Shown here one piece after another: positions 19,083 through 64,000 of a stretch of DNA of 64,000 nucleotides. The DNA lies in contig OZ020258.1 in assembly GCA_963971285.1 (NCBI GenBank), positions 1,674,001 to 1,738,000 on the forward strand. The letters run 5' to 3'. This DNA comes from Astropecten irregularis (taxonomy: Eukaryota > Echinodermata > Asteroidea > Paxillosida > Astropectinidae). Below the pieces are notes generated by a model. It made no database searches. It was not told where the DNA came from and saw nothing but the letters and a program-made list of their open reading frames with translations. Made by a program: the position numbers and the translations under genes. Numbering within the stretch: the stretch's first letter is position 1; the number at the start of each line of letters is the position of its first letter.

Positions 19083-19600
19083 ACCATACCGAAATAGAAA
19101 ACTTCACAGATGTATAGGGTATAAAAATGGTGATGGTAGAAACATACCGTTAAAGGTTTTCTGCCTGAAATGCCGTATTTATCCAGAAAAGAGTAAAACC
19201 AGTGACCAACATTATTTCCGATCTTTTAAAGATCAAACTTTAAAGAGGAAAGACTTAAAGGTAGTATCATACTTTGGTAAGACACCAAAACAGAAACTTA
19301 CAGGGTATGAAGATGGTGGTGTTAGAAACTTACCGTTAAAATTGTTCCGCCTGAAATGGTGTATTTATCCAGAAATTAGTAAAACAACGACCGAAAATCT
19401 TTTTGCGGATCTTTTTAAAGATTAAAAATAAAAGAGAAAAGACTACTGTGGCTGTTTTTCACTGTTTTCTAAAAACGTGGGCACCGTATGAGACTTAAAT
19501 TTTCACAGATGACTGTATCGTCCTTGATATTGTTGCCACGGTGATTCTGCATTTCTCTGACAAAAAACAATGTTTTGAAGGCGTACATTTGGACATATGA
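19083..19600 (+). mobile_element. Two tandem family A MITE copies, degraded
   Basis: A partial family A copy (about 19090-19255) is followed directly by a second (from CTTAAAGGTAGTATCATACT at about 19254). Both contain the ACAGGGTATGAAGATGGTGG-type segment. A 150-codon open frame through this stretch is a by-product of the repeat and not a gene. Confidence 0.7.
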
Positions 19601-30086: not shown

Positions 30087-30159
30087 GGCTGGATGGCTCA
30101 GTTGGTAGAGCGCCTGTACGGTATTCAGGAGGTCGCCGGTTCGAATCCAACTCCAGTCA
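30087..30159 (+). tRNA. tRNA-like sequence, probable pseudo-tRNA
   Basis: It has exactly the canonical 73-nt layout: acceptor GGCTGGA/TCCAGTC pairs fully (one G-U), D stem GCTC/GAGC pairs, A box TGGCTCAGTTGG and B box GGTTCGAATCC are intact, and a T run follows as a Pol III stop. But the anticodon stem has a T-T pair, position 33 is C instead of the near-universal T, and the T stem has two C-A mismatches. The loop would place GGT (Thr) at 34-36. It is most likely a decayed tRNA gene or the head of a tRNA-derived SINE. Confidence 0.5.
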
Positions 30160-34255: not shown

Positions 34256-34612
34256 ACTGTACTTTGGTAAGAAACCAAAACACAAATGTTCACAGATTTA
34301 CGTATAACTTACAGGGTATGAAGATGGTGGTGGTAGAAACATACCGTTAACATATTTCCGCCTGAAATGGTGTATTTATCCAGACATTAGTAAAACAACG
34401 ACCGAAAATCTTTTTGATCTTTTAAAAGATCAAAAATAAAAGAGAAAAGACTTAAGAAATACTGTGGCAGTTTTTCACTGTTTTCTCAAAAAGTGGGCAC
34501 CGTATGGGACTGAAATGTTCACAGATGACTATTATTGACGTATCTGTCTTGGTATTTGTGCCCATGAATCTGTATTTCTTTGATAAAAACAAAGTATGAT
34601 ACTACCTTTAAT
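34256..34612 (+). mobile_element. Family A MITE, near full length
   Basis: About 357 bp with the central palindrome TTGATCTTTTAAAAGATCAA and the end GTATGATACTACCTTTAA. The left tip is slightly shortened (begins TACTTTGGTAAGAAACC). Confidence 0.85.
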
Positions 34613-37952: not shown

Positions 37953-38619
37953 ATGGCGACCATGATACCGCTGCCTGACGGATGTGAGGATCGCTGGTCG
38001 TGGAGTACGACCGATAAATCGCATGAGGTGAAGATCGAGGGACCCATGAACGAGACCGCGGTGTTCCATCCCAACTGGTCTAACGGCACGGCAGGGGTGC
38101 GAGGAACCAGGGTGCTGAACCGGGGGAGGTTCTACTGGGAGCTGAAGCTGTCCCGTCGGGTGTTCGGCACCAGCATGATGTTCGGCATCGGCACGAAACG
38201 AACGCGACTCCATATCGACGAGTTCATCAACATGTTGGGGGAGAACGAACAGAGCTGGGGCTTGTCCCACAAAGGGTTGTTATGGCACCAGGGGACCTCC
38301 ACACCCTTCACCGCCCCGTTCCCGGAGAAGCAACCCACCACACTTGGACTCCTCTTCGATGGCATCAAGGGGACCCTGACCTACTACAAGGACGGGGTGT
38401 GTCTCGGCGAGGCCTTCACGGGACTCAACCGCCATAACTGCGAGCTGTACCCCTTCGTCTGCTCCACGGCCGCCAAGACAGAGATGACACTGGCCAACAT
38501 GAGACGTGGGATGGTCTCCCTTGAGGACCGGTGTTGCGTCACCATAGCGAGGCATCTTCGGAGCGAGACCGAGGCTGGAGGTCTCATCCTACCCTCCCTG
38601 CTTAGAAACAACATCATAC
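37953..38619 (+). CDS. SPSB3: SPRY domain/SOCS box protein 3-like, first coding exon
   Basis: By similarity to the SPSB family this is a substrate receptor of a Cullin5-Elongin B/C ubiquitin ligase. The SPRY domain covers about residues 14-185: WSWST near the start, RFYWELKLSRRVFGTSMM, SWGLSHKGLLWHQG, LTYYKDGVCLGEAF, then YPFVCSTAAKTEM. A SOCS-box-like segment follows (SLEDRCCVTIARHL, then LILPSLLRNNII). In detail it is closer to SPSB3 than to SPSB1/2/4. I start at 37953 because ATG is in the AAAATGGCG context and the family similarity begins right after; an in-frame ATG at 37866 would add 29 unlike residues. The exon ends at a strong donor (ATAC|GTGAGT, 38619/38620) in phase 1. No 3' exon was found. 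If unspliced, the frame stops at 38690. Codons are GC-rich compared with the surroundings. Confidence 0.85.
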
Positions 38620-39714
38620 GTGAGTGTTTCCGTCAATGTCCCGCAAACATAGGAATGTCGACCCTCAAAGCACCCTGTGGGGTGACATGACAACCAAAAA
38701 AACTATCGCCAATTTCTAACCAGTGACTAAACTTTACAGCAAACGTGTTTTGTTTTTCTCAATTCTTTCCGCACCTGTAACTCTACTGAATAACACTGGG
38801 TGATGTGAACATTAAGATAATTATCTGATCATAAACTTCTTCTATTTTATTGAATTCCCAACAAAATGCTACATGGAAACCGATCACATTGACTCAAATT
38901 CACAATTCAGTTCTGTTTTCCCTCCCCGAGACTCCACAAGCGAACAGTGTTTGACAAAACATCATCATTCGAATGTGAGGCGACACAATATCAATGCACG
39001 AACGTCTGTCGGACAACCAAGGGGCGGCCATCTTGTCTATCTATGACGTCATCTACGAGAGGAACATCTGTCGCTCGTGCATGTCACCATTTTTATTTAA
39101 GAGAGAGAGACTGGGTGAAAAATAATTACACCCCAAAACAAACAGTGACAAAGGAGGTCGAGGGATGGAGGTGTCCACGTGCGCAGTAAACTGTTACTGC
39201 GAGAGCGTGAAAAGCAAGACCGCTACAGAACACAGAACCTATCGATTTTAAACATCAGCCCATCGCGTGCAGATATCGACGGCTGTTCCATGATCATCCA
39301 CTTCTTCTGTTTGTTTCCAACCCAAATCTGGACAATTAAATCATTGCAGTCACAAGCTCAAATTTGCGTCTTCAGCACTAAAATCATGTTATTAACATTA
39401 ATCAAATTAAGATGTGTTGCTAGAGATACGTTTAACCTGACAAAGATTGTTACTTTGTCCCCCGAAATTAAACTGAATTGCTATTTCTATGCCTTCGTCC
39501 CTTGTGATGAACAAGTCGCTCGATAGCTGCAACTCTAGTTCTTTGTTCTCCAAAATGATAAAAAAGGGCAACAGACGGCAAGATTCCCATGGAAACAAGA
39601 GAACATCCTCGACCATGTGACCACTCAAAGAGGCAACAAAGAGGCTAGTGGAAGTCTTTGTTCCTGGTGGGGTTTTAACTCTCTCCCACTGGGTCGTAAA
39701 CTTCGCCATATGAC

Positions 39715-41495: not shown

Positions 41496-42597
41496 TTCTT
41501 GTTTAAAAGTGTTACATCATCATAGAAAAACAGTATTATTTCATCAGAAACTAGACAGTAATGATTAGAGATTATGAAAAAAACCATAAACTGCCTGTGT
41601 ATAGTCCGTCTGCTCATTATCCCTGATCAGACTTACTTTAAACCCGCTCAAACGCTGCCTATAACCGAAGTAGAAATTCGAATAATCACTAGAAGTAATA
41701 ATTGTAGTTATCTAAATCGTAGTTAAGTGTTGATTTGCAGAGCACATGTTAGTCTGATATAATTATAGCGGTGGTGTTGGGAAATATGATGTTTATTGGG
41801 TGTGTTTTCATTTCAGCAGCTGCCAATTATAATTGTTGTTCATCTACAACGGAACTATACTTGCTTGGAATGTGTGCTAGTCCTTACGACATTGACCTGT
41901 TGTTGCACTGTAAACGAAGAGCGCCCTCTATAATGACGGTGTGTCATCCAGGACATTGTCTTAAGGCTCACGAGTTTGGTGACATAAAATCGCTAATAAT
42001 TTGTGATAATCTCTACACATGAGTGCACTTGTTAATTGTACCGCGTAGTTCCTGTTGCTAGACAAACCGCTCTAGATAATGCTTTAACGACTGTCATCAA
42101 CTACATTGTACAAAATGGTGCTTCATAGTTCACTGTGGGGGAAATTGAGGTCAATGTGTTTGTGTAGGTTTAGAAGCGAGATATGATTCTATGTAAATAG
42201 CTATTACTATTTATTACGTGTAATTAATATTAGTATCAAATACTTAAACACCATTACCTGTTGATTGTAGCAGTAATGAATGCTTGTATCTAATACTAAT
42301 CTATTATTACCAGTTATGAGGCCGGGAAGGTGCAATATTAATAATGATTAAACTAATCTGTGTTAAATCTATGTGAATTGTAATTGTTATAATCACATAA
42401 ATGTGCAAGAATACATTCCAAAATGTTGTAGTGTCAGTGAAAGAAATGTAGTGTTTCGTCTGTGAGATGAAAATGTAGTGAAATCGTGTAGTATCTCGTC
42501 GATATTAGTAATTTAATCTAGAATTGATCTTATATATAGTTATATTAATTGGGACTGCCATTCTAGTCACGGTGGAAGCCATCTTGTTTTGGTGTTC

Positions 42598-43338
42598 ATT
42601 TTTCAAAAAATCGAACGAGGCCCAGATAATCTGGTTCCTGCTGATGACGTGTGAAGCAATATACACGTTGACGGTAGGGAACTAGTCCAGAAGAAGATGG
42701 CTGCCGTTTAACTCCACTCACTCTGTCTTTCTGGAATGGCGTTTACAATGTTAGTCTTTTACTAGTAGAGGACTAAGTAAAAAGAAAAAGAAGAGGAAAA
42801 AAACAACCTTTTTACCGCTGCCGTGTGCTATTGAACGTAGGTGTATAATAATGTTAAGTGATTGTTCTTCAGAACTTGTTCTAAGTTAAATGCATCACCT
42901 TGTACTAAATGAATAATTACTTGATCCAATTAGTTATTTATTCTGGTTGTAAATAATGATTGACCATTTTTTCTTTGTTTTATTAATTATTATTCTGAGC
43001 TATGGAATCTTGCTATTAATGATGTAGCACATCAAAGACTGGTCGACTTGCCATTCTGCAGAGTGCGCATGCGCAGTCACGTGAACAGCATCGGTGTATT
43101 CAGATGTGTGGTAGATTAGAATGAAAAATAATATGGAAATATATTCAGAATTGACGTTTGACAACAACAACAACAGCAACAACAAAACAACAGCAACAAA
43201 AGTGAAACAACAGCAACAAATCAACAGCAACAGAACAACAGCAACAAAACAACAACAAATCAACAACAACAACTGATCAACATCAACTAATCAACATCAA
43301 CAAAACAACAGCAACAAAACAACAGCAACAAGAACAAG

Positions 43339-43375
<37 letters not shown>

Positions 43376-43612
43376 GCAACAAATCAACAACAAACAACAA
43401 CAAAAAATAACAACAACAACAACATCAGTTACAACAACAAACAAACAAATTACAATAATTATGAGCGCTGCTGTGGTAAATGTACTCAATGATTAATTCT
43501 GTTTTTCCTTTGTAAGTTAGAACTTCGTTAATCTTAAAATAATGATTTCTCGCTATCAGGTATTCATATTGTAACATCTCTCATTATCACTGCGTCTTGC
43601 ATACAATGCTCT
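42598..43612 (+). repeat. 1-kb direct duplication, left copy
   Basis: It runs from TTTCAAAAAATCGAACGAGG to TCTTGCATACAATGCTC and matches 43739-44640 nearly throughout, with small indels and a different-length (AAC)n tract (about 43160-43450). High identity suggests a recent event. Confidence 0.85.
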
Positions 43613-43738
43613 GAACATACTCGTTTATAGGTATGCTGCTGCTTGTTCTGTTGTAATTTCGTCATGGCTCGCTGGTAGTTCATGTACTTGTTGGTCTCTT
43701 GTGCAAGATCATCTACGTAATCCATCAACAGCTCCAAA
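43613..43738 (-). pseudogene. Duplicated EIF3H exon fragment
   Basis: About 115 nt are nearly identical to EIF3H exon 6 (49338-49473) in the same orientation: [20 protein letters not shown], then [18 protein letters not shown] is intact. The copy also carries some intron next to the exon donor, which has changed from GGTACGT to AGTATGT. At the other side homology stops inside the exon, before its acceptor, so it cannot splice as the parent does. It lies exactly between the two copies of a 1-kb duplication and about 4.8 kb from the EIF3H stop codon. Only a few substitutions separate it from the parent. Confidence 0.85.
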
Positions 43739-44640
43739 TTTTCAAAAAATAGAACGAGGCCCAGATAATCTGGTTCCTGCTGATGACGTGTGAAGCTATA
43801 TACACGTTGACGGTTGGGAACTAGTCCAGAAGAAGATGGCTGCCGTTTAACTTCACTCACTCTGTCTTTTTGGAATGGCGTTTACAATGTTAGTCTTTTA
43901 CTAGTAGAGGACTAAGCAAAAAGAGGAAGAGGAAAAACACTTTTTACCGCTGCCGTGTGCTATTAAACGTAGGTGTATAATAGTATTAAGTGATTGTTCT
44001 TCAGAACTTGTTCCAAGTTAAATGCATCACCTTGTACTAAATGAATATTACTTGATCCAATTAGTTATTTTTTCTGGTTGTAAATAATTATTGACCATTT
44101 TTTCTTTGTTTTATTAAATATTATTCTGAGCTATGGAATCTTGCTATTAATGATGTAGCACATCAAAGACTGGTCGACTTGCCATTCTGCCGAGTGCGCA
44201 TGCGCAGTCACGTGAACAGCATCGGTGTATTCAGATGTGTGGTAGATTAGAATGAAAAATAATATGGAAATATATTCGGAATTGACGATTAACAACAACA
44301 ACAGCAACAACAAAACAACAGCAACAAATCAACAGCAACAAAACAACAACAGCAACAAAACAACGGCAACAGAACAACAGCAACAAAACAACAACAACAG
44401 CAAGAAATCAACAACAAAAAACAACAACATCAATAACAAAAACAACAACAAACAAATAAATTACAATATGAGCACTGCTATGGTAAATGTATTCAATAGA
44501 TAATTCTGTTTTTCCTTTGTAAGTTAGAACTTCGTAAATCTTAAAAATAATGATTTTTCACTGTAGTTTACTGTTCGCTATCAGGTATTCATACTATTGT
44601 AACATCTCTCATTATCACTGCGTCTTGCATACAATGCTCA
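43739..44640 (+). repeat. 1-kb direct duplication, right copy
   Basis: Partner of 42598-43612; begins TTTCAAAAAATAGAACGAGG. The (AAC)n tract (about 44290-44460) is shorter here. It ends at the same TCTTGCATACAATGCTC, after which the exon fragment is absent. Confidence 0.85.
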
Positions 44641-45539
44641 ATGGCTGCTGCTCGTTAAATATTCAATGAAACACACTGCTACAACGTCCTGATTTTGACG
44701 GAGTTCCTTCTCATAACCTGAATACAAAGAAACAACAGATATGAACTTTTGAAATATTATTTCGAGTTATTCAGGAAAAGGGTTAACTCTCTGCCAGGTC
44801 TCTATTGTTTATGTATGAACTGCTGACATGTTTGAATATATTACATTCGTCTCTTCATCAGTAATTGTTGGTTTTACTTTTAATTTATTCAAATTATTTA
44901 TCGAATTATTTATTCGTTTAAATTTATGAAATTCTAAACCAGCTAGTACTTTAATTCAACTATTTATTACTTTTCTTATTTATTGACTTCAAGCATGCAT
45001 ATTGTGGTTGTAATTAATCAAACAGTGTAATTATTGCTATGTTCGAATCCTGTTTTTGAAATACAGCTGCTTAATGTATCATTCTTATTTATTAATTAAT
45101 TAATGAATTTATTCATTTGGTTTTGATTAGATTGTAATGATTGAAATGTAATTATTAATTAATTTTTTTTTTAATTCTGACGATATGGTTATTCTGCTTC
45201 CTGGTCATACAGGATAGCAGGTAACCACGCCTAGTCTCTGCCCACTTGCCAGTGTCAAATAAAGTAGTCAGTCTATCAAATACAAATGTCTACTTGTTTT
45301 ATTTTAATCAATTTTTAGTTGTTGTTTTTTGTAAGTTTATTTGCTTTGTTCTTGTTTATTTTAATTTTGTTTTGCTTGTTTGTTTGTTTTGTTTATTTCA
45401 ATTAATGTTTTGTTTCGTTTTTTTTTATTTGATTGTTTTTTACTCGTTTCTTGGGGAATTGGAACAAATTGCAAGTATAGTCTTGAACAAACAAAATTAT
45501 GATTTGTACATTATTTTGTACATTTTACAGCACTACAGC
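44641..45539. other. AT-rich intergenic DNA
   Basis: Runs of TTTATT/ATTAATTAATTAAT and T-rich sequence; no gene or repeat family recognised. Confidence 0.4.
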
Positions 45540-45918
45540 ACTTTAAAGGGACGGTACAGAATTGGTAAGACAAAATACACGTCATGATCACAGATTCACA
45601 TATAACTTACACAGTATAATAGTGATGATAGGAGAAAACATCCCATGAAATGTTTTTGTCTGAAATGCCATATTCGTTGAGAAATAAATGAAACTATTTT
45701 CCGATTGGAATAAATCGCTTCGAAGCGTTTTATTCATTCGTTGAAAAGTGTACAGCTCTCTGTACACGGGTTTTCACTATTTTCTCGTGACCCAGATGGC
45801 TGATTGACCTCAAACTTCTAAAGGTTTGTCAGTTAAGGTATATGATGGATTACATAACGTGCTTTCACTGTCAGCAACGGTTTTGTCGCAAAAACTAGTT
45901 CTGTACCATCCCTTTAAA
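45540..45918. mobile_element. Family B palindromic MITE
   Basis: CTTTAAAGGGACGGTACAGA at the left and AGTTCTGTACCATCCCTTTA at the right are inverted. The centre has the palindrome AATCGCTTCGAAGCGTTTTA-like block (about 45715-45735). The design parallels family A, which it directly abuts on the right. Confidence 0.8.
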
Positions 45919-46280
45919 GGTACTATCATACTTTGGTCGCATACCAAAACAGGAATCTCCACAGATTTACTTTTAACTTATACGGGGTATGAAGATGGTG
46001 GTGGTATAAACCTACCGTTAAAATTGTTCCGCCTGAAATGCAGTATTTATCCAGAAATTAATAAAACAACGACCGAAACTTTTTTTGATCTTTTAAAAGA
46101 TAAAACATAAAAGAGAAAAGACTTAAGAAATACTGTGGCCGTTTTTCACTGTTTTCTCAAAAAGTGGGCACCGTATGGGACTGAAATTTTCACAGATGGC
46201 TGTTATTGTATCTTCTTTGATATTTTTGCCCATGGACCTGTATTTCTTTGACAAAAACCAAAGTATGATATTACCTTTAA
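45913..46280 (+). mobile_element. Family A MITE, full length
   Basis: TTTAAAGGTACTATCATACT to ATGATATTACCTTTAA, 368 bp, sharing the TTTAAAGG junction with the preceding family B element. Contains AACGACCGAAACTTTTTTTG and the GATCTTTTAAAAGAT centre. Confidence 0.9.
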
Positions 46281-47212: not shown

Positions 47213-47672
47213 CACACATTTAACATCTACTTAAAAACTTGGTGACTGTGAAGAAGGAATAAATTAATACCCAGGCTGCAGTGCAGGTGATCACAGCCTC
47301 TGATTGGCTGTTTAATGCATAAAACCTCATGCATATTTATGAGATAATAAATTACAGCAATCTCATTGGCCACTGTCATTCACCAATGAATGGATGGGTG
47401 CATCAACCTCAACCTCTACAAGAATGAAGCATATTGCTGACAGATTTGATTCCGATGAAAACCCCCTGTGACTGCGGTTGTCGCTTTCACAGACAATCCG
47501 GGGACCCTTTCGGTGAAGAAATGCATTTGTGGGACAGTTTCCGTTAAAATTTTGAACACAAAATCGCAGACTGGACTTTTCTGTGAAAGGGTCTACTTAT
47601 AACATTTGGAGAGTGATACAGTTAGAATAATAGAATGGGCTGGAGTATGGGCAACATGTGACCTAGCCCCCA

Positions 47673-47772
47673 GGGGTCGATTTCACCAAACTCATCGCAA
47701 CTTACTATCAATCCTAGGACTTATAATGCATCCTTTGACCGATCGTAGTAGGGCTTTGTGAAATTGAAACCC
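47673..47772. mobile_element. Family E MITE, internally deleted copy
   Basis: CAGGGGTCGATTTCACCAAA to GGCTTTGTGAAATTGAAACC; about 100 bp, lacking the central GTAACTCGAG part. Confidence 0.65.
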
Positions 47773-48397: not shown

Positions 48398-51300
48398 CTA
48401 TGTACTAGAGCCTTGAGTCTGCAAGGCATCGGCCATGAAGAGCTTCCCGAAGCTGGACGCAGCCATCCGGTTGATCTCCGTGGCGTAGTTCTTCATCTGA
48501 CCGGCCATCATCATGCTCTCCAGTCGGAGGGGAGGCTGGGGCGCCTTGAAGAGCTTGTTCAGGTCCTCGTCGGGGAGGGGAGGTTCGCCCCGCTGCTGCC
48601 TGGCTTGATTCTCTTGTTGCTGCGAGGGGAGAGAGAAAGAGAGAGAATGATAAAACATTAATGGATTCTCCAATGGTTTGGTGGGAAGGGGCTTACCATG
48701 GACAAGTCATGGCCTTGTGTGGTCAAGATTGACCAATGGATTCACTGGGGATTAGGGGTACTTGGACTTCCTTATGGTTGGTATCGGGAGGGAGATGGCA
48801 TTAAGATGGAAGAGGGAGGGGTCTAGAGGGTCATCATCTCTTGATCCCTTTTGGACATCCCGTATTAATGGGGGTAAAACAGGTTGAACAGGGCTTGGTT
48901 TGATGAGATTCCAGGGGTCGATTTCACGAAACCCTACAATCGATCGTTAACTCGAGATACGAAGGATAACCCATTGTATCCTTCGACTTCTACGATTCTA
49001 CGATTGATAGTAAGTTAAGATGAGTTTAGTGAAATCGACCCCAGGACTATTCATGATGAAGTTAAGAAGTCAAGAATAGCTTGCGGTGACACCATGTTAA
49101 ATTGTGAGTTTGAGTGGTGACGTCTGTTTCCTGACGACGGACAGAGCATGCTGTTTCCGAAACGTTGAGTCTCTCAGTTCTCCTCAGAACCACACAAAAC
49201 TCACAAAAAAGATTATGCATATGGCGCCACTGCAAACTATTCTTAACTTGGTTTCTTAAACAGCTGGAGAGAAGCTTTATCTGCAGATGAAATTTCTCTT
49301 GTGGAAGACGAGGGGGATTTATCTGCTCTGAACGTACCCGTTTATAGGTATGCTGCTGCTTGTTCTGTTGTAATTTCGTCATGGCTCGCTGGTAGTTCAT
49401 GTACTTGTTGGTCTCTTGTGCAAGATCATCTACGTAATCCATCAGCAGCTCCAGATTCTTCTCCAGCATATTACTAGTAAGTATAATGAAAACACAAACA
49501 AAATTAGGAATTACTGCATATTCATGAGCCTGTGGACAAATCTGATTGGCCAATGTAAATAGAATTGTGAATCACTGCATATTCATGAGCTTGTGGCACA
49601 ATCTGATTGGTCAATAATGTACTGTGATGCTACATTCTGCTCAAGCATGCATAAATGAGGCTGATGTTGGCTAATACCAAACCTCATAAATATTCATGAC
49701 CTAGAGCTGAATCCCAATTGGTCAATTCACCATCATGTGCCAGTGGATATAATTATCATAATTATCATAATTATCCACGTAGGCCGGGGAATCTCTGAAG
49801 CAACTGTTACACATGTAACATCTCACTGTGCACGTAACATCTCACTGCACATCTATCCTAGTTTGCAGTGCGCGTGCGTGAACTAGATGAAATTTACGAA
49901 AATGAACGTTTTACTGCACTTCTCGACAAAATTGTGGACAATAAAGAATATTTGTGAGGTATAGTAAAACAAATATCATATGGTTTATTTCGGGTGGACA
50001 GTCGATTCTAGCTTTCCTCGGAGTTGGAAGTCGACAAACTATAGTTTGCTCGGCTTCGCCTCAGGAACTATAGTTTGTCAACTTCCAACACCTCAGGGAG
50101 CTAGAATCAACTGTCTACCTGAAACCATGTGATATTTGTATACTGACGCAGGTGATAATTAAGGCATAGGGGAGTCTGAAACCAGACTTGCCCTGATGGC
50201 AAACTCAAGGAGCTATCTTAGTAATAAGAAGTCAAAATCAGTAGAGTGATGCCAGCAGAGGGATGATTTGAAAGGCATCGTGGAGGTAGGAAGTTCAATA
50301 ATAATAATAGAGACATTTATAACGCGCAACATATCGACCCAGAGGGTGCTCAAGGCACTTACCATTATTATCCCTGGTCATCAGACCCCACTAACATTCC
50401 TGAAACAATCTCAACTCCCTGGCTACTGTAAAGTGCACGTAGGCTAATTAAGCTCACAAAGCCATCTTTACCCTCACAGGTACCCATTTACTCCTGGGTG
50501 AAGAGAAGCAACATGTGGCAAAGCGTCTTGCCCAAGAACGCAAGCACCACTAGCCCATGGCTGGATTCGGACCCACAATCTGTAGATTGACCACAAGATT
50601 TTGAGTCCGACACGCCAGACCACTAGGCCACAGCAACCCACAGCTTGCAATTGAGAGGGGAGTGGGAATCTCTAAGGGTTTCTGTCTTACCCGGATGATA
50701 AACTCAGGAAGTTGTCTCCTATCGGAGGCGTGATCTCCTTCAGCTCACACAGTAGAGTGTTGATGAGGTAGGAGTTATGAATGACGATTGGGATCTCTTC
50801 AAAGATATTCTCATAGCACAGACCTGTCTTCTTCAGACTGTTGAGTGAACAGAAAACAGAAATTGTGAAATTTCACGATACACATTCACAGACTTTTTAT
50901 GATCACGTGCCAATACGATGGCTTTGCTTACCGTAAGCATAGAATTGGCAATTATGGAAGCAGAAAATCCAGCACTTTTTCAGGTGGATATATTTTTGCG
51001 GTATGTTTCTACCGGCTCCATCTTCATACCCTGAAAGTTACAGGTAAATCAGATAACATTTCTGTTTGGGTATGCTACCAATCCTGTACTGTACCTTTAA
51101 AGATATGAACATCCAAAGCAGCCGTGTAATATTCCTAGTGTTTGATACAAGGATGTAAAATTCTTTAGGATTTAAGTTTGCAACGCTATTAAGTCTCTAC
51201 AAAAGGGTAACCCTTTGAACAGTGAACTTACGCATCCGTTGAGAAGTCATAGTCTTTGTAAGACTCCATGGCACTCTGGGTCAACCTGTAGGCCTTCAGG

Positions 51301-54300
51301 CTTAGCGTAGACTTGGACGTCTTCAGTGGATCTACATCAGTGGATAATCAATAGGGAAATACAGATAGTCAATCAATGCATCGTCCACATAATGGGATTT
51401 AGGTCCTGCTTGTTTAACACACAGGATCCCAGATTTATGGATCCACGTCCTATGCAGGGAACCTTAAAATGGGATCCGGATCAGTAGAATCCGTGATCCT
51501 GTGCATTAAACAAACAGGCCCTTAGTGATGACGCAAGGAAAATTCAATCAAAGAAAGAATCACTGCCATCATTGGATGGAGTGTATGAGGCACTGGAAGA
51601 AACAACGAGGAGGCGGAAACGTCAATAGTTTGGACAAGAGGTTCTTTTTTAGGAAGCATACATGATTTGCAAGGCCTCCAAAAAAAAGTTATTGAGTTTG
51701 AGACAGAAAATGGACTCAACAGTTCGTAAACAGTGCAAACAGTCACCATGGGAAATCTTGGTTCATCAGATTTCAAGGAAATCAAAATTTGGTGCCTTTT
51801 CCAAAGATCGTTCGTCCGAACGAGTTTTGGAACAAACATAAAGGATACCCTCACTTGAGTTGTTTTAGTTATCCCCTTTCACTCAAGGTATGAAGATGGT
51901 GCTGGTAGAAACATACCGTTAAAATATTTCCACCCGAAATGCTGTATTTATCCAGAAATTAGTAAAACAAATACTGAAAACAGTTTTGATCTCGGGGTAA
52001 GATCAAAACCATTCTTCATGTTTTATAAGAAAAATTGAGTCGGGTTTTTGCTATTTTCTCGTGACTCAGATGTCCGATTGAGCTCAAATCTTTACAGGTT
52101 TATAATTTCATGTACTTCTTTGATCAGACAAAGTATGAGTGATGTCCTGTGATCTTTACCAATCATGTATTATACCTTTAATACCACAAATTACCACCAA
52201 AACCACACTGTGACCAGTGTATTGTGGTAATCAGGATACCACACTAACCTCATGTTAGTGATATGCAGGAAGGTTAGGGTTAGTTAAACTCACCGTATAT
52301 GAGAACCACAGACTCCTCTATCGAATGCTGATAGTTGAACTGTGAGTCCAGCAAAGCCTTGTTCAAGAAGGTTCCATACTGAGTAGACTGGTACCAGCCA
52401 ACGTGCAGATGGTCTATATTGACATGCCGCAGGTTCCTCATCATTTCCATTTGGTACAAGACTGTAAGGAGATGATAGCAACATATTGTCATTCATATAT
52501 TTTTGCATTATCCAAAATCTTGCAACTGGATCGAACCCCCCAGATTCTTTTCAACCCTTTTCAAACTTGAACATTTTCAATCCCAAGTCAACCCGGGTAG
52601 GACGGCCTAGCTGGATCGAAATCAACCCTGGTAGGGAGCAGCCTTGAAAATCTCAACCCGGTTCCAAACTAAATTTTTGCCATGATCTGTGTTGTATGAG
52701 CCGGTACACCAAAAAACATAATGTGAAAATTGCATCTCTCCTATCGGTTAAAAAACTTGCCGGGCTGAACCGGGCGGATCCGGGTTGGTTTCAACACGGA
52801 TATACAAGGCCTATACATTACAAAGATGGTCCAGAATTTTAGACGAGTTTACATACCATCATCAAAGTTTTCTTCATCTGCGTGTTTGGGAAAGGGGAAA
52901 CAGTTGGTGATCTCTAAGGTGTTATCTTGAACCAGGCCAAGCAGTACTCCCTGCACCAGCTCTCCGGCACTACCACCTTCCTCCTCACAATGCTTGATGA
53001 TCTTCAGTACAACCTGTAAATCATCAAAATAAACAACAACAGTTTATAAGCAAGCCGTTCCACTCCAATGCACCCTTAGCATCCTCTACCTTATAAACAG
53101 CATCCTCTGAGTCAGGCAACCAGTCACCCTCGAATCCTGAAGACGAACTGTTTGGAATGTTGAGTGTTCACCACCAGTTCTTCTCAGAACCACACACTCA
53201 TAGAAGAGATTCTTACTTTGTTTTGCATCTAGCCTATGCATCCACATTCCTATGACGTCACATAAGGTGGACACTCAATGTTCTGAACAGTTTGCTCTGT
53301 TCGTCTTCAGGAGGGTGACTGGTTGCCTTTCAGTAGCCCTTCTGTCTAGAGGATCTGCTGTCAAGCAAGCCATTCTGCTCCAGCTTTCCACAATGAAATA
53401 TAAACAGAATTCCACCTTGTATGGAAAAATGAATATTTGTAGAGTTAAATAACTGGACAAGTTATGATGAACTTCAATTTTCAACTAGGCCTATGTAACA
53501 CACTGAGGTAAAAGTGAGTTTTACAGGGTTTTGTTACCGACAATGTTGGGACAATGTCAATGTCGATACACTTCGAATAGATCAACGCGGAGTGACGTCA
53601 TTCCAACTCGCCGACCCATGGAGCCGATGAAAACAAAGCATTAAGTTGTATGGTTTTTAAGACAAAAAGCTGCCAGAATTATTTAATCTTATTACAGGAC
53701 GGTACTTCAAAGAAGGATATTGTCTGAGGAAAAACTATGACTCAACAATGAAAGTCATACAGAATACAATTTCTGCTTCTTGACAAAAGTGATTTGTCCA
53801 TAGTTCGCGCCGGTTTGCGCCATCTACACGTTAGTTTTCATCGGTTGTCAAGTTACTTATGAGAATGAAACTGAAAGTACTAAGTAGGGCCTACCCGGAT
53901 TAGGCCTATTTAACTTAAGTTAAGACTTAAAGTTGAAATTTATAATACTAAAAAGCCGCAAGGAGGAAAGCAACAATTCATGAATTCAGCTGACATGTAC
54001 ATGCATGATGTAAAAACAAGGAACATGACTCAATGACAATGAATAATTAATAATAATATAGCCTACACAAACGCATGCTGTGAAAAATAGTCGGGCTCCC
54101 TATTCGCAATAATACGTACTAAAACGCCTGTGCATACTGGGTGCTATTCGTAAAATTGCAATAAAAATTTTCTAGAATGACCCGCCAGATGGGGGCCGAA
54201 TTTCTAAGGTTTTAAACCAACGAGTTGCTCGAACGTTGCATTTTCATGAAGAAGGATTCGTGATGAATCAATGTAAGATGTTAGAAATATAAGAATCGTG

Positions 54301-54370
54301 TTAATTCTCTCACCAATCCATCGATTTGTACGCGTCCGACCGGCGCTTCCAATGTACTTGCGGTCGCCAT
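48398..54370 (-). CDS. EIF3H: Eukaryotic translation initiation factor 3 subunit H, complete
   Basis: Cytosolic subunit of the eIF3 complex that loads mRNA on 40S ribosomes. Exons on the minus strand: 54370-54314, 53013-52857, 52461-52294, 51331-51232, 50837-50691, 49473-49338 and 48619-48398, all GT-AG with compatible phases (987 nt, 328 aa; human protein 352 aa with a longer disordered N-terminus). Residues about 20-180 form the MPN domain ([32 protein letters not shown] with H89 and H91). The Ser and Asp expected at JAMM positions after the two His are not there, as in other eIF3h, so it is a non-catalytic MPN. The C-terminal part is helical ([20 protein letters not shown]) then [15 protein letters not shown] and [10 protein letters not shown]. 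The start ATG lies in CCAAAATGGCGACC. Introns hold a SINE (50297), MITEs and palindromes. A fragment copy of exon 6 lies at 43613-43738. Confidence 0.95.
48914..49042. mobile_element. Family E MITE, copy 4 (EIF3H intron)
   Basis: GGGGTCGATTTCACGAAACC to TTAGTGAAATCGACCCC. Its centre has TTAACTCGAGATAC, a mutated form of the 14-bp palindrome. Between exons 6 and 7 of EIF3H. Confidence 0.7.
50297..50639 (-). mobile_element. tRNA-derived SINE in an EIF3H intron
   Basis: On the minus strand it begins GGGTTGCTGTGGCCTAGTGG, a tRNA-Leu-like head (GGACTCAAAATC with a CAA anticodon position and B-box-like GGGTCCGAATCC). A body follows with CTTGGGCAAGACGCTTTGCC and TTCACCCAGGAGTAAATGGG, then GTTATAAATGTCTCTATTAT and an (ATT)n tail. 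That body resembles the conserved central block of widespread invertebrate SINEs, from memory. It has the same orientation as EIF3H and lies between exons 5 and 6. Confidence 0.75.
50979..51100 (-). mobile_element. Fragment of family A/B MITE (EIF3H intron)
   Basis: Includes ATCTTCATACCCTGAAAGTT (family A interior) and ends CCAATCCTGTACTGTACCTT, closer to the family B end, so it looks like a hybrid half element. Confidence 0.6.
51655..52182 (+). mobile_element. Family B-related repeat, copy 2 with family A piece inside
   Basis: The outer parts match 7799-8166. At about 51890-52010 a segment reads as family A (GGTATGAAGATGGTGCTGGT, ATCCAGAAATTAGTAAAACA), which is absent from the other copy. 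In the intron between exons 3 and 4 of EIF3H. Confidence 0.65.
53112..53330. repeat. Inverted repeat (hairpin) in EIF3H first intron
   Basis: AGGCAACCAGTCACCCT and TGAAGACGAACTGTTTGGAA at the left recur inverted as GTTCTGAACAGTTTGCTCTG, TTCGTCTTCAGGAGGGTGAC and TGGTTGCCT at the right. A related sequence (CCGAAACGTTGAGTCTCTCA near 49155) occurs beside exon 6. Confidence 0.65.
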
Positions 54371-54391
54371 TTTGGAAAAAGAAATATTTAA

Positions 54392-54407
54392 CCAAAAGAG
54401 GGCGCTA
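54392..54407 (+). promoter_or_regulatory. CTCF-like motif at the EIF3H start
   Basis: CCAAAAGAGGGCGCTA sits 22 bp upstream of the EIF3H ATG, within the presumed shared promoter or 5' UTR between EIF3H and the plus-strand exon at 54664. Confidence 0.4.
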
Positions 54408-54663
54408 TTCATTATGGTCCACAAAAAAATTGCACCTGTACAGGTTTTGCAGGTTCGCAAAGTTTCTGCTCAAAGTTGTGACAGATTTCGCTCACTTTTC
54501 TGGAGGTTTGGTAGAGTTCATTACCAAAACCTTGAAGAGGACAGGTTTGTGGTTGAGAAAGCGGCATGCATTGTCCACGAGTAGAGGGAAAATGCCGCTA
54601 TTTTGGTCGTGCTGGAATGACGTCATTTCGCCGACCAAACTTTGTGGAAGTTTACCATTGGGC

Positions 54664-55375: not shown

Positions 55376-55749
55376 TTTAAAGGTAGTATGGCCTATCATA
55401 CTTTGTTTTTTTGTCAAAGAAATACATATTCATGGCCAAAAATATCAAGGAAGATACAGTAAGGGTAATCTGTGGAAATTTCAGTCCCATACAATGCCAA
55501 CCTTTTGAGAAAACAGTGAAAAACGGCCACAGTATTTCTTAAGTCTTTTCTCTTTTATTTTTGATCTTTTAAAAGATCAAAAAGATTTTCGGTCGTTGTT
55601 TTATTAATTTCTGGATAGATACACCATTTCAGGCGGAAATATTTTAACGGTAGGTTTCTACCAGCATCATCTTCATACCCTGAAAGTTATATGTAAATCT
55701 GTGAACATTTCTGTTTTGGTCTCTTACCAAAGTATGATACTACCTTTAA
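55376..55749 (-). mobile_element. Family A MITE, full length, reverse
   Basis: TTTTTTAAAGGTAGTATGGC to AGTATGATACTACCTTTAAG, 374 bp, opposite orientation to those at 34256 and 45913. Has the intact centre GATCTTTTAAAAGATCAA. Confidence 0.9.
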
Positions 55750-56270: not shown

Positions 56271-56397
56271 TCTCATAAGACACACACACCTACTGCACAC
56301 GCCAGTTTTTGTTACGTCCAGTCAATGTGAAGTGCGCCCCCAATGTTGTAGAAAATAGGTCTGCATAACATCATTATTAAAATAATTTTTGCCCACG

Positions 56398-56757
56398 TTT
56401 TAAAGGTAGTATCATACATTGGTTTTTGTCAAAAGAAATACAGATTCATGGGCATAAATATCAAGGACGATACAATAAAAGTCATCTGTGAAAATTTCAT
56501 TCCCATACGGTGCCCACTTTTTGAAAAAATAGTGAAAACGGCCACAGTATTTCTTAAGTCTTTTCTCTTTAAAAGATCAAACAGATTTTCGGTCGTTGTT
56601 TTACTAATTGCTGGATAAATACACCATTTCAGGTGGAAGAATTTTAACTGTATGTCTCTATCACCACCATCTTCATACCCTGTAAGTTATACGTAAATCT
56701 GTGAACATTTCTGTTTTGGTGTCTTTATACCAAAGTATGATAGTATACTACCTTTAA
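56398..56757 (-). mobile_element. Family A MITE, full length, reverse
   Basis: TTTAAAGGTAGTATCATACA to AGTATGATAGTATACTACCT. The centre of the palindrome is shortened (CTTTTCTCTTTAAAAGATCA). Confidence 0.9.
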
Positions 56758-59329: not shown

Positions 59330-61530
59330 ACAAACCAACCAACACGCCCACAAAAAAACCCAACAGGCAAACACGAAACCCAAACAAGCAAGCAAGAATC
59401 CAAACAAGCAGGAAACCAAACAAGCAAGCAAGAATCCAAACAAGCAGGAAACCAAACAAGCAAGTAAGAAACCAAACGGGGAGTAAGCAAGAAACCAAAC
59501 AAGCAAGCAAGAAACCCATCAAGTAAAGAAACCCAACAAGTAAGCAAGAAACCAGACAAGTAAGCAAGAAATCCACCAAGTAAGCACGAAACCAGACAAG
59601 TAAGCAAGAAACCCAACAAGCAAGAAAGAAATCAGGGGAGGGGACCAAGTAAGAAACCAAACAAGCAAGTAAGAATCCAAACAAACAAGCAAGCATCCAA
59701 ACAAACAAACAAACAAACAAGCAAGAAACCAACAAAGCAAGCAAGCAAGAAACCAAACAAGCAAGCAAGAAACCAAACAAGCAAGTAAGAAACCAAATAA
59801 GCAAGTAAGAATCCAAACAAGTAAGCAAGAAACCAAACAAGCAAGTAAGAATCCAAACAAGTAGGCAAGAAACCAAACAAGCAAGCAAGAAACCAAACAA
59901 TCAAGCAAGAAACCAACAAAGCAAGCAAGCAAGAAACCCATCAAGTAAATAAACCCAACAAGCAAGCAGGAAACCAACAAAGCAAGCAAGCAAGAAACCA
60001 AACAAGCAAGCAAGCAAGAAACCAAACAAGCAAGCAATAAACCAAACAAGCACACAAGAAACCCAACAAGCAAGCAAGAAACCCAACAAGTAAGCAAGAA
60101 ACCAAACAAGTAAGCAAGAAACCAACCAAACAAGCAAGCAAGAAACCAAACAAGCAAGCAAGAAACCAAACAAGCAAGCAAGAAACCAAGCAAGCAAGCA
60201 AGCAAGCAAGAAACCAAACAAGCAAGCAAGAAACCAAACAAGCAAGCAAGAAACCAAACAAGTAAGCAAGAAACCAAACAAGTAAGCAAGAAACCAAACA
60301 AGCAAGTAAGAAACCAAACAAGCACACAAGAAACCAAACAAGCAAGCGAGAAACCAAACAAGTAAGCAAGAAACCAAACAAGCAAGTAAGAAACCAAACA
60401 AGCACACAAGAAACCAAACAAGTAAGCAAGAAACCAAACAAGCAAGTAAGAAACCAAACAAGCACACAAGAAACCAAACAAGCAAGCGAGAAACCAACGA
60501 AACAAGTACGAAAAAAGTGACAAGTAAGCAAGAAACCAAACAAGCAAGTAAGAAACCAAACAAGCAAGTAAGAAACCAAACAAGCAAGCAAGAAACCAAA
60601 CAAGCAAGTAAGAATCCAAACAAGTAGGCAAGAAACCAAACAAGCAAGCAAGAAACCAAACAATCAAGCAAGAAACCAACAAAGCAAGCAAGCAAGAAAC
60701 CCATCAAGTAAATAAACCCAACAAGCAAGCAGGAAACCAACAAAGCAAGCAAGCAAGAAACCAAACAAGCAAGCAAGCAAGAAACCAAACAAGCAAGCAA
60801 TAAACCAAACAAGCACACAAGAAACCCAACAAGCAAGCAAGAAACCCAACAAGTAAGCAAGAAACCAAACAAGTAAGCAAGAAACCAACCAAACAAGCAA
60901 GCAGGAAACCAAACAAGCAAGCAAGAAACCAAACAAGCAAGCACGAAACCAAGCAAGCAAGCAAGAAACCAAACAAGCAAGCAAGAAACCAAACAAGCAA
61001 GTAAGAAACCAAACAAGTAAGCAAGAAACCAAACAAGTAAGCAAGAAACCAAACAAGTAAGCAAGAAACCAAACAAGTAAGCAAGAAACCAAACAAGCAA
61101 GTAAGAAACCAAACAAGCACACAAGAAACCAAACAAGCAAGCGAGAAACCAAACAAGTAAGCAAGAAACCAAACAAGCAAGTAAGAAACCAAACAAGCAC
61201 ACAAGAAACCAAACAAGTAAGCAAGAAACCAAACAAGCAAGTAAGAAACCAAACAAGCACACAAGAAACCAAACAAGCAAGCGAGAAACCAACGAAACAA
61301 GTACGAAAAAAGTGACAAGTAAGCAAGAAACCAAACAAGCAAGTAAGAAACCAAACAAGCAAGTAAGAAACCAAACAAGCAAGCAAGAAACCAAACAAGC
61401 ACACAAGAAACCAAACAAGCAAGCCAGAAACCAACGAAACAAGTACAAAAAAAGTGACAAGTAAGCAAGAAACCAAACAAGCAAGCATGGAACCAAACAA
61501 GCAAGCAAGAAACCAAACAAGCAACTAAGT
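59330..61530 (+). repeat. 2.2-kb array of a 20-bp satellite
   Basis: Unit about AAGAAACCAAACAAGCAAGC with variants (GTAAG for GCAAG, CACAC for CAAGC, ATCC for AACC). The plus strand is almost free of T. A higher-order duplication is visible: the marker CAATCAAGC occurs at 59898 and 60661 and the marker ACGAAACAAGTACGAAAAAA at about 60497 and 61292 (offsets 763 and 795). Long minus-strand open frames of up to 539 codons result because the unit has no stop in any minus-strand frame. Confidence 0.9.
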
Positions 61531-61570
61531 TATTGCTTGTTATAGTGCTTAGTTGATAGATGATACAGCT

Positions 61571-61960
61571 TTGTTGACTAATGAGTTGGTATCAGTGTCT
61601 CTTGAAGTGATTGGTTGATCAGTGCTATGGCTACGGCTAGGTTTGTTGATTAATGAGTTGATATCATCGTCCCTTGAAGTGAGTTGTTGATCAGTGCTAT
61701 GTCTACGGCTAGGTTTGTTGATTAATGAGTTGATATCAGTGTCCCTTGAAGTGATTGGTTGATCAGTGTTATGTCTATGGCTAGGTTTGTTGATTAATGA
61801 GTTGATATCAACGTCCCTTGAAGTGATTGGTTGATCAGTGCTATGTCTAATATAGGTTTGTTGATTAATGAGTTGATATCAGTGTCCCTTGAAGTGAGTT
61901 GTTGATCAGTGTTATGTCTACGGCTAGGTTTGTTGATTAATGAGTTGATTATCATTCTCA
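61571..61960 (+). repeat. 72-bp minisatellite, about five copies
   Basis: Unit begins TTTGTTGATTAATGAGTTGA and ends CTACGGCTAGG; successive copies differ at a few positions (for example CAGTG/CATCG/CAACG). It directly follows the 20-bp satellite. Confidence 0.85.
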
Positions 61961-63493: not shown

Positions 63494-63820
63494 GCTTGGA
63501 GTTAGGAGGGCCTGACGCGTTTCGATCCTAGCAGGATTTTTATCGAAGGCTAAATGTCATTGTCTTATCTATTTGTACACTTTGATATTGTTTTATGTTG
63601 TTCAAACCTCAATAATTGTATTTTTTTGTGATTGAGAATCGGCGTTACCGTACAGACAGTTTGTCCTCCAATCTAATCCTAGCTATACAAATCGTCATTC
63701 TGAATTATATGTTAATTAAAACAATGGTTTCCACAAAGTTATATCATTCATGCTTCAGAGAATTTATCAGACGGTATACCGTCATATAACATTGTGGTCA
63801 GGCATTGCACCCGGCTTCAT

Positions 63821-64000
63821 TAAAGGTAATAACATACTTTGGTTGGTGTCAAAGAAATGCAGATTAATGGACAAAACTATGAAGGAAGATACAGTGCCGG
63901 TAACAGTCATCTGTGAAATTTTCAGTCCCACACGGTGCTCATTTTTTATTAGAAAACCGGTAAAAACACCCACAGTATTGAACAAAAAAATCACCGTTAT
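63821..64000 (-). mobile_element. Family A MITE, cut by the window end
   Basis: TTAAAGGTAATAACATACTT followed by AGATTAATGGACAAAAC and AAATTTTCAGTCCCACACGG-like sequence; the second half lies beyond the window. Confidence 0.8.

Follow-up and report, generated by a model that had tools for sequence, protein, structure and literature searches.

How did part of an exon of EIF3H come to lie outside the gene, at the very seam of a directly repeated 1-kb sequence? The question is raised by the window analyzed here, a stretch of 64,000 nucleotides from Astropecten irregularis (contig OZ020258.1, positions 1,674,001 to 1,738,000), in which an earlier note had placed a fragment of EIF3H exon 6 between two 1-kb direct repeats, about 5.7 kb from its parent, and had proposed either capture by a mobile element or replication slippage as its origin.

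The exon 6 fragment, its parent gene and the flanking repeats

The minus strand of the window reads as seven EIF3H exons, of which the sixth is the one copied (Table 1). In the PDB, the translation of exon 6 matched seven distinct sequences named eIF3 subunit H, with 40 of 40 residues aligned (E = 2.5e-5 to 3.5e-5); the other four PDB matches listed for it were to syntaxin (E ~0.9). Exon 7 matched the Pfam domain eIF3h_C (E = 7.6e-27) and exon 2 matched JAB (E = 2.7e-9), while exons 1, 3, 4 and 5 were presumptively assigned by their resemblance to human eIF3h. The donor of exon 6, CGG/GTACGT (the slash marks the splice boundary), joins in frame to the acceptor of the last exon, CTCGCAG/CAACAAGAG. 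Short repeats also occur near these exons, namely, an inverted 48-nt pair around the last EIF3H exon (47670-47717 and 48998-49045; 90% complementary, 1,280 nt apart) and adjoining 59-nt direct repeats on the acceptor side upstream of exon 6 (49496-49554 and 49557-49615; 83% alike). The exon copy itself sits 4.66 kb past the end of the EIF3H coding region, between EIF3H and an opposite-strand SPRY-domain gene that we take to be SPSB-like.

In a pairwise alignment of the trimmed pair, the copy and its parent segment were identical at 126 of 130 bases, with no gaps, and all four mismatches were transitions. A repeat search of the window paired 43607-43740 with 49324-49457 (134 nt, 97%) at a spacing of 5,717, in keeping with the ~5.7-kb distance first proposed. 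Direct copies of a ~1-kb unit, hereafter U, abut the exon piece exactly on either side, and the exon piece is likewise in direct orientation relative to its parent segment in EIF3H, which begins 4,686 bp beyond the right copy of U. The arrangement described in the earlier note was thus confirmed, and its coordinates proved right to within a few bases. Once the bases shared at junction 1 are set aside, the unambiguous insert spans 43612-43738.

The two copies of U differ in length mostly because of a (CAA)n tract, which accounts for 120 gap columns in their alignment; 8 and 27 gap columns fall in two other parts. The tract measures 288 nt in the left copy (43160-43447) and 168 nt in the right copy (44291-44458). 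Given this strong length difference, the tract has been altered since the duplication.

We searched the A. irregularis assembly that contains the window (475,729,200 bases in 168 contigs) by a method that passes over frequent words and limits scoring to its best candidates. The probes took in the exon piece, the flanks and, for U, the two parts outside the (CAA)n tract (42600-43159 and 43448-43611). The exon probe (43613-43738) found two places in the genome, its own (E = 1.4e-58) and that of the parent (E = 1.8e-53), and these E values indicate that the match is not due to chance. Each U probe had two genome matches among the best-scored candidates, both at this locus, whereas the flanks at 42300-42599 and 44640-44880 had one genome match each. 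The 1-kb sequence, for which the earlier note had considered dispersal, was therefore found by these probes at its two local copies and, among the best-scored candidates, nowhere else in the assembly.

At gathering thresholds, a scan of the whole window revealed no Rfam match at the locus; the sole match at gathering score was a tRNA gene at 30087-30159. No phage record matched 42600-44640. Elsewhere in the window, self-comparison identified a dispersed family whose copies are 77-90% alike, lie in both orientations and are in some cases nested near one another. At 59356-61524, a 20-bp unit (AAACCAAACAAGCAAGCAAG) is tandemly repeated in 106.8 copies, and a 72-bp unit (5.3 copies) follows at 61570-61954.

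Table 1. Coordinates of features of the locus and its surroundings, numbered from the first base of the window
Feature	Coordinates	Strand	Evidence
U, left copy (1,012 nt), with (CAA)n-rich tract at ~43160-43447	42600..43611	+	Alignment, divergence; head and tail at only two genome places
U, right copy (901 nt)	43739..44639	+	Alignment, divergence, genome matches of U probes
Copied EIF3H exon 6 fragment (118 exon and 12 following-intron bases)	43609..43738	- (sense)	126/130 identity; two genome places
Left flank of the duplication, single genome place	42300..42599	+	Genome search
Right flank of the duplication, single genome place	44640..44880	+	Genome search
Template segment inside the parent gene	49326..49455	-	Alignment with the copy
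Junction 1, microhomology TGCTC between U's end and the EIF3H intron	43607..43611	+	5 bp; simulated junctions
Junction 2, 2-bp exact microhomology inside 7-bp microhomeology	43735..43743	+	Junction comparison
EIF3H with its seven coding exons (limits approximate; start codon ~54371, stop ~48400)	48398..54420	-	Exon reading; Pfam eIF3h_C and JAB; exon 6 PDB matches
Parent exon 6 (136 bp); acceptor TAG precedes 49473, donor GT occupies 49337-49336	49338..49473	-	Exon reading; PDB matches
Exon of SPRY-domain gene pointing towards the duplication	37953..38621	+	Pfam SPRY, E = 1.8e-17
Copies of the dispersed family	34260-34611, 45914-46280, 55394-55749, 56397-56745, 882-1179, 19113-19582, 63820-63979	both orientations	Self-comparison

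Origin of the U-exon fragment-U structure

Outside the CAA tract, the two copies of U differed at 21 of 711 aligned bases (2.95%), and the exon copy and its parent differed at 4 of 130 (3.08%; P = 1.0, Fisher test, with low power because the exon contributes four differences). Equal divergence of U and the exon is what a single event predicts; with four exon differences only, it counts weakly for template switching when taken alone.

The junction strings connect the end of U to the exon segment, and the far end of that segment to where U begins. Junction 1 has the 5 bp TGCTC in common between U's right end (ACAATGCTC) and the EIF3H intron (TCTGCTCTG), and microhomology of at least 5 bp was present in 0.70% of 200,000 simulated random junctions from these loci. 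The exact overlap at junction 2 is 2 bp, which is reached by 17.4% of random junctions and is unremarkable by itself as a mark of template switching. ATTCTTC in the parent exon and ATTTTTC at the start of U nevertheless agree at 6 of 7 positions around this overlap, with a frequency of 0.2% per register, uncorrected for register choice.

The layout, the divergence and the junctions suggest that one ancestral replicative template-switch event, a miniature DUP-NML-DUP rearrangement of the FoSTeS/MMBIR type, made the whole structure, a reading to which we assign a probability of about 0.68. A nascent strand that had copied the single-copy intergenic U would have come off its template at the TGCTC where U ends on the right and paired with the identical pentamer in EIF3H intron 6, ~4.7 kb along the same arm of the chromosome. 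After copying 130 bp of EIF3H (12 bp of intron and 118 bp of exon), it would have returned to U by way of the ATTYTTC-like homeology at its left end and run through U again. The expected product is an array of U, exon fragment and U in direct orientation; EIF3H would remain unaltered, and the copies would afterwards have drifted ~3% apart. Replication slippage, as proposed in the earlier note, would be correct in substance, since the equal divergence and the microhomology and microhomeology at the junctions point to a replication error, but a switch across 4.7 kb is not slippage proper.

Repair of a staggered double-strand break could also have generated the locus: long overhangs would have been filled in, duplicating U, and the ends joined with an EIF3H patch, by either patch-mediated repair or a polymerase-theta templated insert. 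The final sequence is identical for replication and break repair, and the short microhomologies are compatible with the latter. Tandem duplications arising from breaks with overhangs have been shown in mouse cells (PMC5730883), and rice insertions of 10-1000 bp, which include tandem duplications and short duplications of ectopic donors, are ascribed to inaccurate break repair in a review (PMC7407515). At ~1 kb, however, U is long for an overhang, and the small duplications attributed to this route in PMC8355091 are <100 bp. We consider break repair unlikely to have been the source. It is very probable that the locus stems from a single templated event, be it template switching in replication or break repair.

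An assembly fault, in which two haplotypes of U were placed end to end and the exon fragment belongs to one of them or was misjoined, is improbable. A difference of ~3% between alleles is within the range of outbred marine invertebrates, and the divergence of the U copies would fit. A false join would, however, leave unexplained the exon fragment from 4.7 kb away, the equal divergence and the 5-bp microhomology at junction 1; furthermore, the flanks are single copy, the contig extends over 16.46 Mb, and the window is free of N.

The repeat-insert-repeat layout and the equally diverged repeats would also be expected if U were a mobile element, for example, an LTR or TRIM element with the exon captured between its long terminal repeats. 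We judge this reading to be very improbable and, on sequence grounds, largely refuted. The two U probes match just two local copies in 475.7 Mb, and when U was compared with the rest of the window under relaxed scoring, only weak matches were obtained (best E = 0.038), whereas other repeat families recur many times in the window self-comparison. The ends of U (TTTTCAAAA...AATGCTC) do not have the form TG...CA, no target-site duplication was found beside U (the 4-mer TTCA is all that its 30-nt flanks have in common), and comparison of the ends by eye showed neither a terminal inverted repeat nor a primer-binding site. Given the genome counts and the ends of U, U is evidently a single-copy stretch of this locus that underwent tandem duplication rather than a mobile element. 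Exon capture by such an element, the first of the two origins considered in the earlier note, is consequently not supported, U being present at two places with single-copy flanks and no element-type ends.

Two further candidates were rejected. A DNA transposon of the Pack-TIR type does not fit, as U is without terminal inverted repeats in the by-eye comparison, and neither does a Class 1 (LINE-mediated) templated insertion or retrocopy, as the insert runs into the intron and has no poly(A) at its ends. Since the copy includes intron, spliced mRNA is ruled out as its template.

Least likely of all is a stepwise origin, in which a tandem duplication of U came first and the exon fragment later entered exactly at the seam, or the reverse: four exon differences are too coarse to speak against a gap in time, but two independent breakpoints would have to agree to a few bases on either side of the insert, and equal divergence would be unexpected.

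Coding content and splice sites of the exon copy

The copy holds 118 of the 136 bases of exon 6 and 12 bases of the following intron; the first 18 exon bases and the acceptor are absent. Both the flanking intron on the donor side and the missing acceptor are thus as first described, and so is the in-frame, nearly identical coding content: the exon parts of copy and parent agree at 115 of 118 bases, and the differences affect 3 of 39 codons, all synonymously. For these codons, the chance that three of three changes are synonymous is ~4% if transitions of any kind occur at random and ~10% if G/C-to-A/T transitions do, so the pattern proves nothing. It is not the simplest prediction for the drift of an inert copy, although chance or changes on the parent side suffice to explain it.

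The donor reads CGG/GTACGT in the parent and CGA/GTATGT in the copy, with changes at positions -1 and +4. The mutated donor of the earlier note is therefore only partly right, as its GT is intact. Its suggestion that the copy is not spliced as the parent is likely holds on account of the missing acceptor, not through destruction of the donor GT. Indeed, since it has no acceptor, the copy would be unable to act as an internal exon in the manner of its parent. We likewise rejected a functional tandem exon duplication or exon shuffling, as the copy is an incomplete exon, short of 18 bases and the acceptor, and is placed outside the gene, 4.66 kb from where EIF3H coding sequence stops.

Given its location outside EIF3H and the loss of the acceptor, the exon copy is probably an inert scar for which no function is expected. 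It is highly improbable that a plus-strand RNA, from the long 3' part of the SPRY-domain gene or from another, passes through the copy and acts as an antisense or small-RNA brake on EIF3H. Such an RNA would carry 118 nt antisense to EIF3H exon 6 and would account for the all-synonymous differences.

Comparison with known rearrangements

If the template-switch origin is correct, the locus provides a small and clean case in which one copying error moved a piece of an exon along with a duplication, with no transposon needed. Scars of this type would supply exon shuffling with raw material, and each of the two segments serves to date the other. As a single case, it adds little on how often template switching, as opposed to mobile elements, moves exons in this lineage.

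The rearrangement is of a known kind, of which this locus is a further example. It resembles the break-repair duplications and patch insertions covered in PMC5730883 and PMC7407515, in that a tandem duplication may be accompanied by DNA from an ectopic donor, although the duplicated unit here is longer than in the small duplications made by break repair. With class 2 templated sequence insertion polymorphisms, as characterized in PMC5110952, it shares an insert of distant origin, microhomology and the lack of a target-site duplication or poly(A); unlike class 2 insertions, which are described there without duplication of the recipient, it has 1 kb of the recipient duplicated around the insert. 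The templated-insertion cycles of human cancers, which correlate with tandem duplications (PMC7025897), also string a distant template into a locus such that each segment gains copies. Those cycles are somatic and usually run between chromosomes, whereas the present event is local and inherited.

The comparison with human DUP-NML-DUP rearrangements (FoSTeS/MMBIR), such as those at PLP1, extends to several features described in PMC6902434. In both, two direct duplicated segments enclose an interval, of normal copy number in the human cases and presumably so here, and a switch from the end of segment one to the start of segment two is followed by another that leads back. The human junctions show microhomology or microhomeology, one such case having microhomology at both junctions, and microhomeology is proposed there as a mark of replicative repair; here, junction 1 has the 5-bp microhomology, and junction 2 has 2 bp within the 6-of-7 homeology. 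Unlike the human rearrangements, the A. irregularis structure measures 1 kb plus 130 bp and is a germline-fixed or segregating scar with no known change in gene function, and it may represent the same type of event in miniature.
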